From: Chryseobacterium sp. T16E-39
GTDB taxonomy: Bacteria; Bacteroidota; Bacteroidia; Flavobacteriales; Weeksellaceae
Direction of reading: 5' to 3'
DNA length: 64,000 bases
Assembly (NCBI RefSeq): GCF_002216065.1
Contig: NZ_CP022282.1
Coordinates: forward strand, 1,302,001-1,366,000
Shown here: one piece after another, positions 6,819 through 59,222 of the stretch
How the letters are laid out: each line of letters opens with the position of its first letter
How positions within the stretch are numbered: the stretch's first letter is position 1
The notes under the pieces: model-generated
What the model saw: only the letters and a program-made list of their open reading frames with translations
What the model was told of the DNA's origin: nothing
The model's database searches: none
Translations under genes and position numbers: made by a program

Positions 6819-6837
6819 ATGAAAATCAAGATACTAA

Positions 6838-52462: not shown

Positions 52463-52987
52463 ATGGAAAACAAAACAATAATGATTACGACTGCTGACAT
52501 CAGTAAAACAAAAGATTTGATTTTGTCCGTTGATCAACTTAATACAGTAATCGGTAAAACACCAGCGAAAGCAAAAAAAAATAGACCCGCGAAAGGTGGT
52601 GGCACATGGACTTATGTTTCAGGTTCTTACATGAAAAAACAGCTTAATATGTTGTTTGGTTGGAATTGGGATTTCGAGATCGTTTCAGAGCAAATTTTAA
52701 TTGAAGCAGGTGAAGTGATCGTAAAAGGCAAATTAACATGCAGATCAAACGGCAACACTATTGTAAAAATGCAATATGGCAACAAGGACATCATGTTTAA
52801 AAAAGGTACAACAGTACCATTATCAATTGGTAATGATATGAAAGCCGCCGCCACTGATGCATTAAAGAAATGTGCTGCTGAACTGGGTATTGCACAAGAT
52901 GTTTATGCTCCTGCCGACTTTAAAGATGTTGAAGTAGTAAATGAAATTCCTTCTGGTAAATCAAACGCTGATAAAATGGCCTTATGA
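52463..52987 (+). CDS. Rad52/Sak-like single-strand annealing protein
   Basis: 174 residues. The core WTYVSGSYMKKQLNMLFGWN plus a central beta-hairpin (VIVKGKLTCRSNGNT) and IGNDMKAAATDALKKCAAEL resembles Rad52/22-type phage recombinases. It would anneal complementary single strands. The start of the exonuclease gene overlaps its stop by 4 bp, giving the annealase-exonuclease pair used for phage recombination. Confidence 0.8.
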   Translation: MENKTIMITTADISKTKDLILSVDQLNTVIGKTPAKAKKNRPAKGGGTWTYVSGSYMKKQLNMLFGWNWDFEIVSEQILIEAGEVIVKGKLTCRSNGNTIVKMQYGNKDIMFKKGTTVPLSIGNDMKAAATDALKKCAAELGIAQDVYAPADFKDVEVVNEIPSGKSNADKMAL

Positions 52988-53661
52988 TACGGTACGCAGT
53001 TTTTGAGACAGAAGAATTATGGCTGAATTTCAGAGCACCATATTTTACATCTAGTGAATCATCAGCGCTAATGCCAGAGCCCAAAAATAAAGCAGAAATA
53101 TTATCAGTGGGTGCAAAAACTTACGTTAGAAAATGCGCTGCATCTGTTTTAGCACCGCCACCATTACCGCAATACAATCATGCAATGGAACACGGTAAAA
53201 CCACCGAACCATTTGCAGTGCTTGAACTAGCAAAGCACTTGGGTAAATCAATTGAAGATGATGATTTTATCTACACTTCAAATAATGGTTTTGTCTTCTT
53301 CTATGATGACGAGTACAATTTGGGAGGAACGCCAGATGTAATAATGAAGGCGCTTAAAAAGTCTGCGGAAATAAAATGTCCGAACTCCGATACTCACTTG
53401 GAACATTTGACTTTTCTAACCCCAGAAGATGTGAAAATACATCTGCCAAAATATTACGGACAAATGCAGAGTAATATGTATTTAACTAAAACAGATGAAT
53501 GTATTTTCATGAGTTACGATAATCGTTTTTACAATGATAAACTGCACGAGCATTACATCCACGTTCCAAAAGATGACGAGTACATAGAAAGGCTTTTAAT
53601 CAAAGCTAAAGCCGGAAAAGACTACAAAGAACTAATACTAAAAACAATAAATGAAAAATGA
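52984..53661 (+). CDS. YqaJ-family recombination exonuclease
   Basis: 225 residues, YqaJ/lambda-Exo fold. Expected motifs: FTSSESSALMPEPKNKAEI, the EHGKTTEP helix (Glu 75), GGTPDVI (Asp 118) and AEIKCPN (Glu 129, Lys 131), the usual two-metal active site. It should digest one strand from DNA ends so that the annealing protein encoded just before it can load. Start by ATGA overlap. Confidence 0.85.
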   Translation: MIRYAVFETEELWLNFRAPYFTSSESSALMPEPKNKAEILSVGAKTYVRKCAASVLAPPPLPQYNHAMEHGKTTEPFAVLELAKHLGKSIEDDDFIYTSNNGFVFFYDDEYNLGGTPDVIMKALKKSAEIKCPNSDTHLEHLTFLTPEDVKIHLPKYYGQMQSNMYLTKTDECIFMSYDNRFYNDKLHEHYIHVPKDDEYIERLLIKAKAGKDYKELILKTINEK

Positions 53662-53834: not shown

Positions 53835-54043
53835 ATCTCTACCACAGAATTAAAGAAGTTAGAAATCACATTGATGATCTCCAGCAGATAGCAAACAAAC
53901 ATAAAGCTAACAATAAAATTCACAGTTATAATCGTGTTTGTGATACTATAAAAGAAAATAAGCTAAATCTTAAAGTATTAAATGAAGATCTAGTAAAACA
54001 CAATAGAATATTATTATACAGAATCCATGCAGAAACACACTAA
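53831..54043 (+). CDS. Small coiled-coil phage protein
   Basis: 70 residues, mainly helical, heptad-like (YHRIKEVRNHIDDLQQIANK; ENKLNLKVLNEDLVKHN). Function unknown. It overlaps both neighbours. It is not Avd-like in length or composition. Confidence 0.55.
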   Translation: MNLYHRIKEVRNHIDDLQQIANKHKANNKIHSYNRVCDTIKENKLNLKVLNEDLVKHNRILLYRIHAETH

Positions 54044-54299
54044 AAATTATCTACAGTTTTTCAAACCTCACGATGAACAAAATATTCCATGCGAGGTTTG
54101 CGCCAACAGGGCTGTAGATATACATCATATAATTCCAAGATCAAAATTTGGTAAGAAAAGAAAGGAGGAACAGGATCATGTTGAAAACTTAATTGCCTTA
54201 TGTCGTGTTTGTCACGATATGGCACACGATGAGAAATTCAGCAAAGACTATCTATCTAAGATACATTTTAAAAAAATTAAATCTATAAATACACTTTAA
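54027..54299 (+). CDS. HNH endonuclease
   Basis: 90 residues. Compact HNH fold with CxxC pairs (Cys 22/25 and Cys 59/62), DIHHIIPRS (His 33/34), Asn 54 and the final His in DMAHDEK. It probably nicks or cleaves phage DNA during recombination or packaging, or is a homing-type enzyme. It overlaps the preceding gene by 17 bp and sits just before the DGR target genes. Confidence 0.85.
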   Translation: MQKHTKNYLQFFKPHDEQNIPCEVCANRAVDIHHIIPRSKFGKKRKEEQDHVENLIALCRVCHDMAHDEKFSKDYLSKIHFKKIKSINTL

Positions 54300-54321: not shown

Positions 54322-54777
54322 ATGGAAACATTAAAAATCGAAATTCCCAAAGGATTCGAAATCGAAAAATTTGACACAACTACAGGTGTGGTTTCATTCA
54401 AGGAAAAACCAAAAGACATCAAAGAAAGAATTAAATCATTTTCTGAAGTGCTTAATATACTTGAAATTGATGAGGATGATTTTGACGAGGAAAACGAAGA
54501 TTTAAGTGCTGATGAAGTTGCTTACAGACAAATTAAATTAATTGTCAAAGCTTTAAATGAGGGATGGATTCCCGATTGGACTAATTCAAAACAATACAAA
54601 TACTTTCCATGGTTCAATATGGGTTCTTCTTCGGGTTCGGGTTTCTCGTACGGCGGCTACGGTGGCTGGAATGCGCGTTCGGCTGTCGGCTCTCGCCTTT
54701 GCTTCAAGTCTCGTGAACTTGCAGAATATGCAGGAAAGCAATTTACCGAAATCTACAAACAATACATGACAATCTAA
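54322..54777 (+). CDS. DGR variable target protein 1
   Basis: 151 residues. An acidic N-terminal region (about 1-75; SFSEVLNILEIDEDDFDEEN) precedes a conserved joint AYRQIKLIVKALNEGWIPDW, then KYFPWFNMGSSSGSGFSY and a variable region (residues 101-127) with positions GGYGGWNARSAVG. A constant C-terminal helix (SRELAEYAGKQFTEIYKQYM) follows. Every base difference between its VR and the template repeat at 55195 falls on a template adenine. There is no signal peptide, so the diversified face is presumably used inside the cell or on a phage particle. Function unknown. Confidence 0.85.
   Translation: METLKIEIPKGFEIEKFDTTTGVVSFKEKPKDIKERIKSFSEVLNILEIDEDDFDEENEDLSADEVAYRQIKLIVKALNEGWIPDWTNSKQYKYFPWFNMGSSSGSGFSYGGYGGWNARSAVGSRLCFKSRELAEYAGKQFTEIYKQYMTI
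54623..54702 (+). repeat. DGR variable repeat VR1
   Basis: 80 bases aligned without gaps to TR 55195-55274. Of 20 template adenines, 16 are changed and four retained; none of the 60 other bases is changed. It lies inside the first target gene, about 25 codons before its end. Downstream CAAGT / ACTTG (54705-54721) could form a short hairpin. Confidence 0.92.
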
Positions 54778-54788
54778 AATTTCCAAAA

Positions 54789-55163
54789 ATGAATATCACA
54801 GAAAAAATTAAAAGCTTTGAAGACGCTTGTCAATTATTAGGTATCGAACCAACGGTACCTGAAGTTTCAATGCTTCCCGAAAACCAGCAAAAAGCGCTTG
54901 TATCACATTATAAGTTAGTGATCATTACGGAAGCTATAAATGAAGGTTGGAAACCTAACTGGAACAACTGGGAAGAAAGAAAGTATTACCCATGGTTCAA
55001 TATGGGTTCTTCTTCGGGTTCGGGTTTCTCGTACTACGACTTCGTTGGCTGGTATACGGCTTCGGCTGTCTGCTCTCGCCTTTGCTTTAAAACTTACGAG
55101 TTGGCAAAGTATGTAGGTGAAACGTTCATAGATCTTTATAAAGACTACTTCTTACTAGAATAA
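54789..55163 (+). CDS. DGR variable target protein 2
   Basis: 124 residues, a paralogue of the preceding gene: SFEDACQLLGIEPTVPEVS, then the shared VIITEAINEGWKPNWNNW and KYYPWFNMGSSSGSGFSY. The variable region covers residues 73-99 (YDFVGWYTASAVC), followed by RLCFKTYELAKYVGETFIDL. The VR differs from the template only at adenines and independently of VR1. One reverse transcriptase thus serves two targets. Confidence 0.85.
   Translation: MNITEKIKSFEDACQLLGIEPTVPEVSMLPENQQKALVSHYKLVIITEAINEGWKPNWNNWEERKYYPWFNMGSSSGSGFSYYDFVGWYTASAVCSRLCFKTYELAKYVGETFIDLYKDYFLLE
55006..55085 (+). repeat. DGR variable repeat VR2
   Basis: 80 bases aligned without gaps to the TR: 15 of 20 adenines are changed and five kept, and no other base differs. 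CTTTGC (55080-55085) and GCAAAG downstream could pair, a hairpin at the 3' edge where target recognition is usually encoded. Confidence 0.92.
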
Positions 55164-55194
55164 ATATTAAAGGTTGTGTGATGTTGTAGTTGTA

Positions 55195-55274
55195 GTTCTT
55201 CTTCAGGTTCAGGTTTCTCGTACAACGACTACGATAACTGGAATACGAATTCGAATGTCAGCTCTCGAATTTGC
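55195..55274 (+). repeat. DGR template repeat (TR)
   Basis: The template for both VRs lies between target gene 2 and the reverse transcriptase gene. In the target frame it reads SSSSGSGFSY, NDYDNW, NTNSNVSSRI. Of 20 adenines, many lie in AAC/AAT codons, which under adenine mutagenesis can give many residues and never a stop. The homologous stretch may begin one base earlier (55194, A versus G in both VRs). Confidence 0.93.
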
Positions 55275-55374
55275 AAAACATTTACATCGCAGACCATACC
55301 ACTTGGTAAAAAACAACAAAATTTTAAAGGCGTTGGTAATGAAATTGAAGACGACTTTACAAAAAGCAAAGGAT

Positions 55375-56337
55375 ATGAAAAGAGCCGGAAGTTTATTTCA
55401 GAAAATCACAAGTTTAGAAAACTTAATCCTAGCAGATGGAAAGGCACAAAAAGGAAAGTCTAAACAATATGGGGTTATAGCTCATAATAAGAATAAAGAA
55501 AGAAATATTGCAAGCCTTAATGATATTTTAATTAGCAAGACTTATAAAACTTCAAATTATAGTGTGTTTAAAGTATACGAACCTAAAGAAAGAGAAGTTT
55601 ACAAGCTCCCATATTTCCCGGATAGAATTTGCCATCATGCAATAATGAATATTTTAGAACCAATATTTCTAAATGTTTTCACTGCTGATTCTTACAGTTG
55701 TATTAAAGGAAAGGGAATTCATGCTGCTTCATTTAATTTAAGAAAGGCGTTGAAGAATGAAGAAGAAACGACCTTTTGTTTGAAACTTGATATTAAGAAG
55801 TTTTATCCAAATGTTGACCATGACATTTTGAAATCACTTTTGAGAAGAAAATTTAAAGATCAAGATTTATTATGGTTGTTGGATGAGATTATTGATAGCT
55901 CGCCTGGATTACCAATAGGTAATTATTTAAGTCAATATTTTGCAAATTTCTATCTAACATATTTTGACCACTGGATTAAGGAAAGATTGAAGGCAAAGTA
56001 TTATTTCAGGTATGCAGATGATATTGTGATCTTGAATAGAGACAAGGAAGTACTTCATCGAATTCTGTACCTAATCAAAAGCTACTTTGAAATTAACTTA
56101 AAACTTCAAGTGAAAGAGAATTGGCAAGTATTTCCAGTTAAAGTTAGAGGAATTGATTTTGTTGGATATAAACATTTTCATTCACATACTTTGCTTCGAA
56201 AATCAATAAAAAAACGATTTGCAAGAATGCTCAAGACGAATCCTAAAAGTGAATCAATAGCATCATATAAGGGGTGGACAAAGCATTGCAATTCTAAAAA
56301 CTTACTTAAAAAACTAATACCTCATGAAACACTTTAA
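55375..56337 (+). CDS. DGR reverse transcriptase
   Basis: 320 residues from Met at 55375 (MKRAGSLFQKITSLENLILA), the usual start of this family; a Met at 55339 is possible. RT motifs: CLKLDIKKFYPNVDHD (catalytic Asp 139), IGNYLSQ at 181-187, the form that marks DGR rather than retron or group II enzymes, and YADD at 213-216. It would copy TR RNA with errors at adenines for transfer into the two VRs. The open frame extends upstream through the TR itself (to 55174), but that part encodes nothing plausible. Confidence 0.93.
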   Translation: MKRAGSLFQKITSLENLILADGKAQKGKSKQYGVIAHNKNKERNIASLNDILISKTYKTSNYSVFKVYEPKEREVYKLPYFPDRICHHAIMNILEPIFLNVFTADSYSCIKGKGIHAASFNLRKALKNEEETTFCLKLDIKKFYPNVDHDILKSLLRRKFKDQDLLWLLDEIIDSSPGLPIGNYLSQYFANFYLTYFDHWIKERLKAKYYFRYADDIVILNRDKEVLHRILYLIKSYFEINLKLQVKENWQVFPVKVRGIDFVGYKHFHSHTLLRKSIKKRFARMLKTNPKSESIASYKGWTKHCNSKNLLKKLIPHETL

Positions 56338-56620
56338 AGATTTAAATATCAAAACGATTTTAACATCATTTATTGGAGAAAAAGTTAGAATAAATAAAAT
56401 ATTAAACACTGAAATTATAGTTCACGATTATAAAATTAAAGAATCAGAAAAGAAACCAGGAACAAAGTATCTGACATTGCAGATAAGTCGAAAAGGAGAA
56501 AAGGAAGTGATATTCACGGGATCAAAAATATTAATGAACATGATTGAGCAGGTATCAAAAGAAAACTTTCCATTCACTACGACTATTATTCAAGAAGATC
56601 AAATGTTTCAATTCACATAA
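56324..56620 (+). CDS. Hypothetical protein overlapping the DGR RT gene
   Basis: 98 residues, with an OB-like or ssDNA-binding-like beta pattern (GEKVRINKILNTEIIVHDY; KYLTLQISRKGEKEVIFTGS). It starts 14 bases before the RT stop. It lacks the basic four-helix character of Avd. It may be a DGR accessory protein or just the next phage gene; position alone cannot decide. Confidence 0.5.
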   Translation: MKHFKDLNIKTILTSFIGEKVRINKILNTEIIVHDYKIKESEKKPGTKYLTLQISRKGEKEVIFTGSKILMNMIEQVSKENFPFTTTIIQEDQMFQFT

Positions 56621-56957: not shown

Positions 56958-57158
56958 ATGGCATTTATATATAAGGGAATTGAATATTATATTGGGTCTT
57001 ATGCTTCAAAGTTCACTATTTCTATTCCTATGATAAAAAATTACTTTAAAGAAGTAGAAGCAAAAAAAAGCGATTATGCACACAATATAGCACAAACAAT
57101 TATAGAAGATGAATTATCAAGAATTTCTAAAGAAAAAAACAAAAGTCCATACACATAA
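56958..57158 (+). CDS. Hypothetical phage protein
   Basis: 66 residues (FIYKGIEYYIGSYASKFTIS). It overlaps the helicase gene start by 50 bases in another frame. Function unknown. Confidence 0.45.
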   Translation: MAFIYKGIEYYIGSYASKFTISIPMIKNYFKEVEAKKSDYAHNIAQTIIEDELSRISKEKNKSPYT

Positions 57159-58389
57159 AGGCTTTTCACCATTTGAGATGAATTCAAACCTATTTCCTTT
57201 TCAGCAATTTATTGTTGAAAGAAATATTGCAAAAGCAAAGCATGGAGTATTCGCAGATTGTGGATTAGGTAAAACCATAATGGAACTTGAAACAGCTACA
57301 CAAACCGTGAGAAAAACTAATAAAAAAGCTTTAATCCTAGCTCCATTAGTTGTAGTTGCTCAAACGAAAAGAGAAGCTGAAAAGTTCGGATTTGATTTAG
57401 ATAAAGTTGTTATAACAAATTTTGAAAATCTGCATAATATTGATCCAAGAGAATTTTCTTCTTTGATTGTAGACGAAAGCTCGATTATGAAAAATTTTGA
57501 AGGAAAAGTAAAAAAACAAATATTCGATTACTTCAAAGATTCTGATTTTAAGTTTGCTTTTACGGCAACTCCATCACCTAATGATCCTATGGAGTTAGGT
57601 AATCATTCTGAATTCTTGAACTATCAATCAAGATTAGAAATGTTGGCAACTTATTTCATAAATGATCAGGACCATACAAGCAAATGGAGATTGAAAGGTC
57701 ACGCAATCGATAAGTTTTATCAATCAATTTCTTCATGGGCGTTAATGCTTACAAAACCTCAGGATATTGGATTTGAAATGGCAGGTTATGACCTGTCTGA
57801 AATTAATTACACAGAACACAAAATAGAAACTGAAAAATTAAATAACGGTTTACTTTTCAATGATCTGGCAGTATCTGCAACTGATTTTAATAGTGAATTA
57901 AGAAGAACTAAAAAACAAAGAATTGAACAAGCTGCAGAATTAGCACAAATAAAAACAAATCATATTGTTTGGGTAAAGCATAATGAAGAAAGCGCAGAAG
58001 TTACTAAAATGATTGATGGTGCAATTGAAGTTTCTGGATCTGATAATCCGGAAGCAAAAGCAGAAAAGCTTTTAGCATTTTCAAATAATGAATTTAGAGT
58101 TTTAGTGACTAAATCTAAAATAGCTCAGTATGGTTTAAATTTTCAAAATTGTGCAAGTCAAATATTCATGAGTCTAGATTTCTCATTTGAAAGTTTGTAC
58201 CAATCTATAAGACGTAGTCACCGTTTCGGACAAAAAAATCAAGTTAACATTAACATCATTACAACTGATACAATGCAAAACGTTGTTGCCACAATAAAAA
58301 ATAAGGAAGAACAATTTAAAGCAATGCAACAAATAATGATCAAAAATCAAAACATATGGAATACAAAGCAATTTATGGAGACTGCGTAG
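57109..58389 (+). CDS. SNF2-like phage helicase
   Basis: 426 residues, a superfamily 2 helicase of the SNF2/DEAD type. Walker A ADCGLGKT (50-56), VDES in the Walker B position (121-124), FTATPSPND (motif III) and the C-terminal LYQSIRRSHRFGQ (motif VI). Likely a DNA-translocase involved in replication or recombination. It overlaps the methyltransferase gene by 34 bases. Confidence 0.85.
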   Translation: MNYQEFLKKKTKVHTHKGFSPFEMNSNLFPFQQFIVERNIAKAKHGVFADCGLGKTIMELETATQTVRKTNKKALILAPLVVVAQTKREAEKFGFDLDKVVITNFENLHNIDPREFSSLIVDESSIMKNFEGKVKKQIFDYFKDSDFKFAFTATPSPNDPMELGNHSEFLNYQSRLEMLATYFINDQDHTSKWRLKGHAIDKFYQSISSWALMLTKPQDIGFEMAGYDLSEINYTEHKIETEKLNNGLLFNDLAVSATDFNSELRRTKKQRIEQAAELAQIKTNHIVWVKHNEESAEVTKMIDGAIEVSGSDNPEAKAEKLLAFSNNEFRVLVTKSKIAQYGLNFQNCASQIFMSLDFSFESLYQSIRRSHRFGQKNQVNINIITTDTMQNVVATIKNKEEQFKAMQQIMIKNQNIWNTKQFMETA

Positions 58390-59222
58390 AAGAAGTTTCC
58401 AAGTTAGAAGATAATAGTATTGATTTTTCAATATTTAGCCCTCCTTTCGCTGAGTTATTTGTTTACTCTGATGACATTAGAGATATGGGAAATTCAAAGA
58501 ATTATAAAGAATTCTTTACTCATTTCAAGTTTCTAATTGAGCAGCTAAAAAGAGTAGTAAAATCAGGAAGGCTGGTAGCAATACATTGTATGGACTTGCC
58601 AATTATGAAAGGTAAAGAGGGATTCGTAGGCCTTAGGGACTTTTCTGGAATGTTAATTCAGGCTTTCCAGGATTATGGATTTATTTATCATGATAGGATT
58701 ACAATTTGGAAGGATCCAGTGGTAGAAATGACAAGAACTAAGTCAGTCGGATTACTTCATAAAACGATAAAGAAAGATGCAGTTATGAGCCGAACTGGAA
58801 TCCCTGATTATATTCTAGTTTTTAGAAATTCAGGAGAAAATGAAGTCCCAATTATACATCAGGATAAAGATCATACTAAAGAAAATTATTTGCCTGTAAA
58901 TCTATGGCAAAAATATGCTTCGCCTGTTTGGAATGACATCAATTATTCTGACACTCTTCAATATCGAAGTGCTAGAGATAATAAAGATGAAAAACATATT
59001 TGTCCCCTACAATTAGAAACAATCAGACGTTGTTTGCATTTATGGAGTAACGAGGGTGAAACGGTTTTAAGCCCATTCGGAGGAATAGGCAGTGAGGGCG
59101 TAGAGTCAATAGATTTAAATAGACGACCTATCCTAATTGAATTAAAAAAATCCTATTTCAATCAATTAGAAAAGAATTTAAAAATCGCATGGGATAAGAA
59201 AAATCAATTGCAATTATTCTAA
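58356..59222 (+). CDS. Phage DNA (N4/N6) methyltransferase
   Basis: 288 residues, N-4/N-6 amino-methyltransferase fold. Catalytic motif SPPF (28-31, in SIDFSIFSPPFAELF) and the AdoMet-binding LSPFGGIGSEGVES near residue 250 give the permuted (beta-type) order. It probably modifies phage DNA to resist host restriction. No cognate endonuclease is next to it. The substrate sequence cannot be deduced. Confidence 0.85.
   Translation: MEYKAIYGDCVEEVSKLEDNSIDFSIFSPPFAELFVYSDDIRDMGNSKNYKEFFTHFKFLIEQLKRVVKSGRLVAIHCMDLPIMKGKEGFVGLRDFSGMLIQAFQDYGFIYHDRITIWKDPVVEMTRTKSVGLLHKTIKKDAVMSRTGIPDYILVFRNSGENEVPIIHQDKDHTKENYLPVNLWQKYASPVWNDINYSDTLQYRSARDNKDEKHICPLQLETIRRCLHLWSNEGETVLSPFGGIGSEGVESIDLNRRPILIELKKSYFNQLEKNLKIAWDKKNQLQLF

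Follow-up and report, generated by a model that had tools for sequence, protein, structure and literature searches.

One template and two targets

The window analysed here, a stretch of 64,000 nucleotides at positions 1302001-1366000 of the single-contig, 4.87-Mb genome of Chryseobacterium sp. T16E-39, contains a diversity-generating retroelement (DGR) made up of a template repeat (TR), two variable repeats (VR1 and VR2) in adjacent small target genes (T1 and T2) and a reverse transcriptase (RT) gene, followed by an open reading frame (ORF) of 98 residues that we term ORF98. The features, numbered within the window, are as follows.

54322..54777, + strand: T1, 151 amino acids, an ORF that holds VR1; phrog_11581 at 1.7e-24, no Pfam match, AlphaFold2 predicted local distance difference test (pLDDT) score 88.7, with an N-terminal extension that is not in T2
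54623..54702, + strand: VR1, 16 of 20 TR adenines changed
54650..54688, + strand: mutable core within VR1, with changes at 12 of its 16 adenines, boundaries putative
54789..55163, + strand: T2, 124 amino acids, an ORF that holds VR2; phrog_11581 at 9.1e-29, AlphaFold2 pLDDT 85.9
55006..55085, + strand: VR2, 15 of 20 TR adenines changed
55033..55071, + strand: mutable core within VR2, with changes at 11 of its 16 adenines, boundaries putative
55195..55274, + strand: TR, 80 nucleotides, mutable core at 55222-55260; the fixed donor marks are 55205, 55211, 55268 and 55269
55292..55373, + strand: RT-17 RNA (Rfam RF03020) in the TR-RT spacer, overlapping the start of the RT frame; 44.9 bits, gathering score 40.4
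55339..56337, + strand: DGR reverse transcriptase, 332 amino acids, start placed from an ATG and from where relatives begin to align; PF00078 at 3.4e-19, phrog_1423 at 4.4e-125, 8ub7 at 2.9e-47
56324..56620, + strand: ORF98, 98 amino acids, candidate accessory protein, overlapping the end of the RT gene; phrog_19665 in 55/55 aligned members

The three repeats align without gaps over 80 bases, 20 of which are adenines in the TR. VR1 differs from the TR at 16 positions and VR2 at 15, with every mismatch opposite a TR adenine and 60/60 non-adenine positions identical in each; the hypergeometric chance of such confinement is 1.8e-13 for VR1 and 2.3e-12 for VR2. The same counts and coordinates had been given in a first-pass annotation of this DNA and proved exact on realignment. 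An independent repeat search recovers the same three 80-nucleotide copies, and scanning the entire genome with the TR adenines set to N and up to three mismatches allowed finds exactly three copies, against none for a reversed control pattern. VR1 lies inside the open frame of T1 and VR2 inside that of T2. Thirteen adenines are changed in both VRs, eight of them to the same base. The mutable core spans approximately TR offsets 27-65 (0-based) and holds 16 adenines, 12 of which are changed in VR1 and 11 in VR2; 1.24e10 variants can be reached per target (about 3e9 if four outer adenines are unwritten), with no reachable stop codon. None of the 10 short inverted repeat pairs listed adjoins either VR in the manner of the hairpin/cruciform found 3′ of the VR in the DGR of phage BPP-1, no further search having been made.

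The RT frame is intact and reads IGNYLSQ and YADD, confirming the motifs already picked out in the annotation, which had also proposed a database search of the RT as a check. That search returned the Pfam match given above and, amongst solved structures, 8ub7 (which we take to be the BPP-1 enzyme) as the best relative at E 2.9e-47, the next, named as a retron-type RT, scoring 1.2e-14. Identity as a retron or group II intron enzyme was rejected, as the TR/VR pair is present and such RTs score far lower than 8ub7. Together with the adenine-only pattern, the DGR-type RT supports the earlier reading of the locus as a DGR in which one TR serves two tandem targets. Among annotated phage RTs, the nearest come from crAss-like phages (57–59% identity at best), and the window RT falls into one tree with these, itself built without any retron or group II RT. 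PADLOC reports generic RT matches for the RT and none for T1 or T2. A second RT gene is present elsewhere in the genome at 2023893-2024360 (L002; RVT_1 at 1.1e-11, in a 545-codon frame).

Related cassettes and their rewriting

Loci with similar RTs, designated here by L numbers, were taken from IMG/VR (the best 80 of 328) and from GTDB genomes (all 75), and these 155 loci were scanned for TRs and VRs, a target being called small if its frame is of 300 amino acids or fewer. The counts are not independent because the same phages are included twice (L008 and L128, for example, are 100% identical). Small targets were found in 121 loci: 99 have two, 15 three, one four and six a single target, although at least one of the 15 is spurious, the extra match in L142 using another stretch of the template. 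The rest comprise 17 long-target loci, two others and 15 without a VR, in 13 of which the RT lies less than 400 bases from a contig edge. Relatives of T1 are detected by tblastn in 122 of the 155 loci, as are relatives of T2. Mapped on an RT tree with 100 rows, target type (small or long) has to change twice, the long-target L178 standing beside a small-target row. The closest RTs and targets with named hosts are from Chryseobacterium, Elizabethkingia and Epilithonimonas, which points to a phage host probably within the Weeksellaceae.

Twelve pairs of related loci, four of them near-identical, were compared around the cassette. L027 and L123 show 21 differences in 12,990 bases, all of them at TR-adenine sites (11 in VR1, 10 in VR2). 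L009 and L011 show 11 differences in 4,659 aligned sites, all at TR adenines of VR1 with VR2 unchanged; within their 11.2-kb aligned block the only other differences are at 1779-2042, more than 3 kb upstream, and beyond this block there is no single-piece alignment. In the long-target pair L172/L173, 15/15 differences are at TR adenines. Because three of the four near-identical pairs differ, around the cassette, solely at TR-adenine sites of their VRs, rewriting in this family is, on the evidence of these sequences, recent, targeted and able to hit one target alone, and the family is to be regarded as active. The claim in the first-pass annotation that each VR had been written separately is borne out directly by L009/L011 but only partly by the Chryseobacterium locus itself, given the eight shared bases at 13 doubly changed adenines.

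Part of the TR–VR difference has another origin. Four TR adenines (0-based offsets 10, 16, 73 and 74) stand opposite a single base in both VRs (G, G, C and C, respectively). Comparison between loci identifies these four, out of the 20, as fixed TR/VR marks, so that some of the mismatches are not hypermutation; they are judged to be fixed because outer positions are constant across related cassettes even where they are synonymous. Synonymous TR-adenine sites that are changed in both VRs carry the same base in 114 of 115 cases, where approximately 41% would be expected from the substitution spectrum, and almost all such shared-base sites are in the outer arms of the repeat. The one exception is L014:1057-1129, in which VR1 has T at a synonymous 5′-arm mark and VR2 has G. 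Over all adenines changed in both VRs of related pairs, the base is the same in 593 of 933 (expected 41%).

At the 3′ end of the VR, the sequence TCNCGNC is found in 175 of 206 VRs of the window and related loci and in the TR for three of the 206 targets (one TR counting once per target), and the 12 long-target cassettes displayed carry the same kind of VR end. As a pattern across loci this matches the logic of the initiation of mutagenic homing site (IMH) and its TR counterpart IMH* in BPP-1, where the VR 3′ mark is altered in the TR (PMC3240598). A DNA recipient mark of this kind would also explain why the peptide VGSRLCF is common to two unlike target families. The 5′ marks may likewise be adenines because, of the TR bases, adenine alone would escape being passed faithfully to the VR. 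The BPP-1 enzyme has a measured context bias (PMC12875486) and a similar bias may account for part of the substitution spectrum here. The notion that CAG in the TR invariably yields G was abandoned, a CAG within the core of L020 having given A, T and T. The synonymous sites agree with the outer-arm adenines simply lying beyond the segment that is copied. The extents of the arms depend on an alignment rule that penalises non-adenine mismatches, and the 0/1,845 non-adenine mismatches in the 5′ arms are therefore partly a matter of construction.

Paired targets, ORF98, RT-17 and the phage setting

T1 and T2 are related to each other (hhalign probability 100%) and match no Pfam family and no structural family; T2 has 1288 homologues and none of the 120 listed contains a Pfam domain. 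With the VR excluded, in 148 of 155 cases a target's nearest relative from another locus (at least 15% diverged) matches it in position, be this upstream or downstream; a target is closer to its own partner within the locus in only four of the 155. Because of these nearest-neighbour counts T1 and T2 look like old paralogues, a pair that predates the radiation of the cassette, and their common TR would account for the VRs having stayed alike despite the old split. In L154 (5940-6800) the two are fused in one open frame of 286 residues that keeps both VRs in phase, the only instance across the 155 loci of neighbouring VRs sharing an open frame. This natural fusion suggests that the T1 and T2 proteins act together. 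The AlphaFold2 models have a helical body, with a hairpin in T1 at 93-99/109-116. Foldseek and VIA-align searches with both models gave no PDB match of note, from which a new fold does not follow, and BFVD gave for T1 eight uncharacterised phage proteins at E ≤0.001, none with a named function. T2 matches one of 50,697 annotated phage records, weakly and partially. Seven of 35 T2 relatives (L103, L104, L107, L111, L112, L113 and L116) have no RT in the sequence covered and may represent former targets or relatives that precede the DGR; L107 retains two tandem targets.

ORF98 is detected in 135 of the 155 RT loci, including 119 of 121 with small targets and five of 17 with long targets; one of the two small-target loci lacking it, L181, ends inside the RT. 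Conversely, an ORF98 profile finds 255 relatives in IMG/VR, and each of the best 80 is accompanied by a DGR RT, the spacing between the two genes being –10 to +33 bases in 76 of the 80, and a distant ORF98 query led to loci with an RT in 18 of 20 cases. A survey of 296 genomes from the order finds three copies, confined to two of the genomes: that of the window, adjoining its RT, and two whose coordinates coincide with those of L119 and L182, where ORF98 likewise adjoins an RT. Comparison of ORF98 with Pfam and PDB yielded nothing usable, and PADLOC gave a weak match to ZorD (4e-4).

To our knowledge the accessory protein Avd is not universal in DGRs. The first-pass annotation had called this a complete core DGR, a description that has to be qualified: an Avd-like gene (PF05635) was found neither in the prophage described below nor in 20 related virus records, many of them fragments. 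The chromosome has 11 scattered matches to PF05635 (23S rRNA intervening/Avd-like fold) at E up to 0.01, the nearest approximately 200 kb away. Known DGR accessory proteins include Avd, HRDC and MSL (PMC10053308). ORF98 probably substitutes for Avd.

Beyond the window, the RT-17 RNA scores above the gathering threshold in four of 10 further loci, three with small targets and one with a long target (L009:5930-6011, L022:5914-5999, L151:6942-7019 and L171:6929-7012), in each case between the TR and the RT or over the RT start. Nine of 13 predicted base pairs show compensatory change amongst 16 sequences chosen from close relatives. Because the TR–RT spacer of BPP-1 recruits the RT–Avd complex (PMC12875486), we infer by analogy that RT-17 would have an RT-recruiting role here.

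The DGR is located inside a prophage of a temperate phage, in the early (recombination/replication) gene block. An IMG/VR viral contig of 55.3 kb (L006) carries the same sequence, 12,996 bases being identical to the window. The plus-strand block around the targets includes the following genes, identified by Pfam.

52463..52987, + strand: Rad52-type annealing protein, PF04098 at 1e-6
52984..53661, + strand: YqaJ-type exonuclease, PF09588 at 2.8e-9
54027..54299, + strand: HNH endonuclease, PF01844 at 2.3e-9
57109..58389, + strand: SNF2-like helicase, PF00271 at 6.2e-7
58356..59222, + strand: DNA methylase, PF01555 at 6e-20

Genes for terminase, portal, head and tape-measure proteins are on the minus strand outside the window, at approximately 1,380–1,397 kb of the genome, with an integrase near 1,402 kb; the tape-measure gene is some 22 kb from the targets. 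Eleven window genes flanking the cassette are detected in only 1–7 of the 155 related loci. Neighbouring frames of at least 145 amino acids within 4.2 kb were collected at 29 hand-picked loci and the 25 commonest families tabulated, using 94 of 95 upstream frames (the one dropped being a T1 copy) and 101 of 101 downstream. Upstream, the commonest families listed are DUF3164, transposition-type ATPases, Sak4, RecT, primase (DnaG) and helicase (DnaB), with one terminase; downstream, they are Mu-type head, portal and tail-completion proteins or, in other loci, replication and methylase genes. These differing families indicate a cassette that is carried by phages of more than one background and is apparently placed at the end of the early block.

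Interpretation and known elements

Taking these observations as a whole, we are confident that a DGR in the early block of a phage diversifies two small paralogous targets. In such a scheme, the TR and the RT-17 spacer would be transcribed together and the spacer, a conserved RNA, would recruit the RT as it does in BPP-1. The RT would then copy the TR into cDNA with errors opposite adenines, consistent with the pattern at this locus and with the fresh changes in near-identical relatives, and the cDNA would replace the core of VR1 or VR2, the TCNCGNC end of the VR acting as the presumed recipient mark; the TR would escape overwriting because it lacks TCNCGNC. The outcome would be new versions of two small paralogous proteins with no stop codon in reach. 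The weakest step is the suggestion that the two targets jointly form one intracellular binder, directed for example against host defence or rival phages, which we regard as possible and put forward with reserve. Still a little more speculative is a general proposal for a clade of Bacteroidota phages, in which a DGR, instead of altering the tail, diversifies a matched pair of small intracellular proteins, produced along with the replication genes, as an antibody-like two-part binder, with ORF98 replacing Avd and with adenines, the only base that the RT would fail to transmit, serving as marks at both ends of the TR that separate donor from recipient.

Several observations weigh against parts of this account. 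The evidence for an intracellular role consists of gene position and size, and some relatives have head and tail-completion genes downstream of the cassette. The T2 model is of low confidence over the VR, and the T1/T2 split has low support in a tree (0.52), leaving the old-paralogue claim to the neighbour counts. RT-17 was recovered in only four of the 10 further loci, and ORF98 was missed in 12 of the 17 long-target loci and has no detected RT beside it in two of the 20 distant ones, one of which (L298) has 4 kb of upstream sequence covered. As to activity, the near-identical L050 and L051 have five differences, all of them outside the VRs; the remaining eight pairs stand further apart, with 267–924 differences mostly outside the VRs; and the only record matching the phage itself, L006, is identical, so that activity is seen in relatives only.

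An alternative for the targets is that the T1 and T2 proteins belong to the virion, for receptor binding or otherwise, as the targets of other phage DGRs do, and are encoded in an early block by chance. Viral DGR targets are mostly annotated as tail proteins (survey PMC8144416), the VGSRLCF tail of the VR is shared with the long targets (hhalign 92% over 28 columns), and some of the relatives have genes for head, portal and tail-completion proteins downstream of the cassette, with a terminase upstream in one instance. Against this, the targets are of only 124–151 amino acids and match no structural family, the named upstream neighbours are mainly transposition ATPases, RecT, Sak4, DnaG and DnaB (of the families listed), the structural genes of the phage itself are on the other strand with the tape-measure gene far off, and the sharing of VGSRLCF can be explained by a DNA recipient mark. 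A tail-fibre reading was set aside on the grounds of target size, gene context and the distance to the structural genes; we consider it unlikely and retain it as a rival. It is slightly less unlikely that ORF98 is an ordinary phage gene that follows the RT in an operon and plays no part in the DGR, as might be argued from its going undetected in most long-target loci, from gaps of 0.25–1.2 kb to the RT in a few loci and from the two distant loci without a detected RT. Against this stand its presence in 135 of 155 loci, compared with 1–7 for the eleven flanking genes, and the DGR RT present in each of the 80 best among the 255 loci to which ORF98 alone led.

That the DGR is dead in this prophage, its VRs being frozen relics, would agree with the identity of L006, the one record matching the phage, over 12,996 bases, and with an in-frame stop in the RT stretch of at least two relatives (L145 and L156). 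A frozen copy, however, would accumulate drift, whereas the 60 non-adenine positions are undrifted in both VRs, the RT frame is intact with both motifs, and relatives are active; we therefore think this quite improbable. Gene conversion between paralogues in the absence of reverse transcription could make repeats alike and might be read into the shared bases (8/13 here and 593/933 over related pairs against the expected 41%), but conversion cannot confine changes to one template base. The synonymous sharing is nearly all in the outer arms and the non-synonymous sharing may, on our interpretation, reflect conservation of residues (Gly, Arg). The fresh changes in L027/L123, which fall only at TR adenines, count as refuting conversion unless RT-free lineages match them, and we give it almost no credence.

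Phage DGRs are usually read as host-range machines. If the reading of a DGR that diversifies two small early-block targets is true, such targets in a conserved lineage, active in relatives, would widen the uses of directed hypermutation. The analysis also supplies a candidate replacement for Avd and a proposed job for the orphan Rfam RNA RT-17, and a recipient mark common to two unlike target families suggests how DGRs might switch targets. A literature search covering titles and the starts of abstracts found nothing on the paired cassette. Wu et al. reportedly dealt with DGR accessory genes in 2018, and Weinberg et al. are said to have dealt with RT motifs in 2017. As far as these searches show, the conserved pairing of small early-block targets, the linkage of ORF98 and the assignment of RT-17 are new, earlier ties of ORF98 or RT-17 to DGRs being possible.

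The present DGR shares several features with the BPP-1 element (mtd, avd, TR, brt): the TR precedes an RT of the DGR type, changes are confined to adenines, an RNA occupies the TR–RT spacer and the VR carries a 3′ mark that is altered in the TR (PMC3240598, PMC12875486). BPP-1 differs in having one tail-fibre target, rather than two small targets in an early block, and in having Avd, in place of which we find ORF98. Here, moreover, the VR is not C-terminal (24–25 residues follow), the repeat is of approximately 80 nucleotides and the core of approximately 39. The crAss-like phage DGRs (cr52_1 and cr55_1), whose RTs are the nearest annotated, are placed with the long-target cassettes in the RT tree. 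Just upstream of its RT, cr52_1 has a 1242-bp gene annotated as ‘tail protein, similar to sulfatase, major tropism determinant’, and the RT neighbour in cr55_1 is annotated as a 1719-bp hypothetical protein. The 17 long-target DGRs, from Bacteroidales and others, resemble the small-target cassettes in the RT tree, the VR 3′ mark, adenine-only rewriting (L172/L173) and RT-17, present in one of the two scanned. They differ in having one target, mostly of 430–480 amino acids (879 in L178), with a C-terminal VR, and in a profile comparison 11 of these long targets show no relation to T1 except over the final 28 columns.

Templates that serve two targets have been described before (PMC6642488, PMC3521204, PMC10743442). 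Several VRs are reported in 271 of 948 DGRs in one survey (PMC6642488) and in roughly a seventh in another (PMC3521204), with targets that are often paralogous, as here; those DGRs come from mixed lineages, whereas here the two-target layout, the target family and ORF98 recur in one part of the RT tree. The phage elements nd4 and nd12 (tentaclins) likewise combine one TR with two targets, but theirs are of different topologies, both C-type-lectin and of receptor-binding type (PMC10743442), in contrast to the small paralogues without a recognised fold described here. Targets need not adjoin the TR: L156 has four VRs, two of which lie thousands of bases to either side (at 2035 and 14098, with the TR at 6831).

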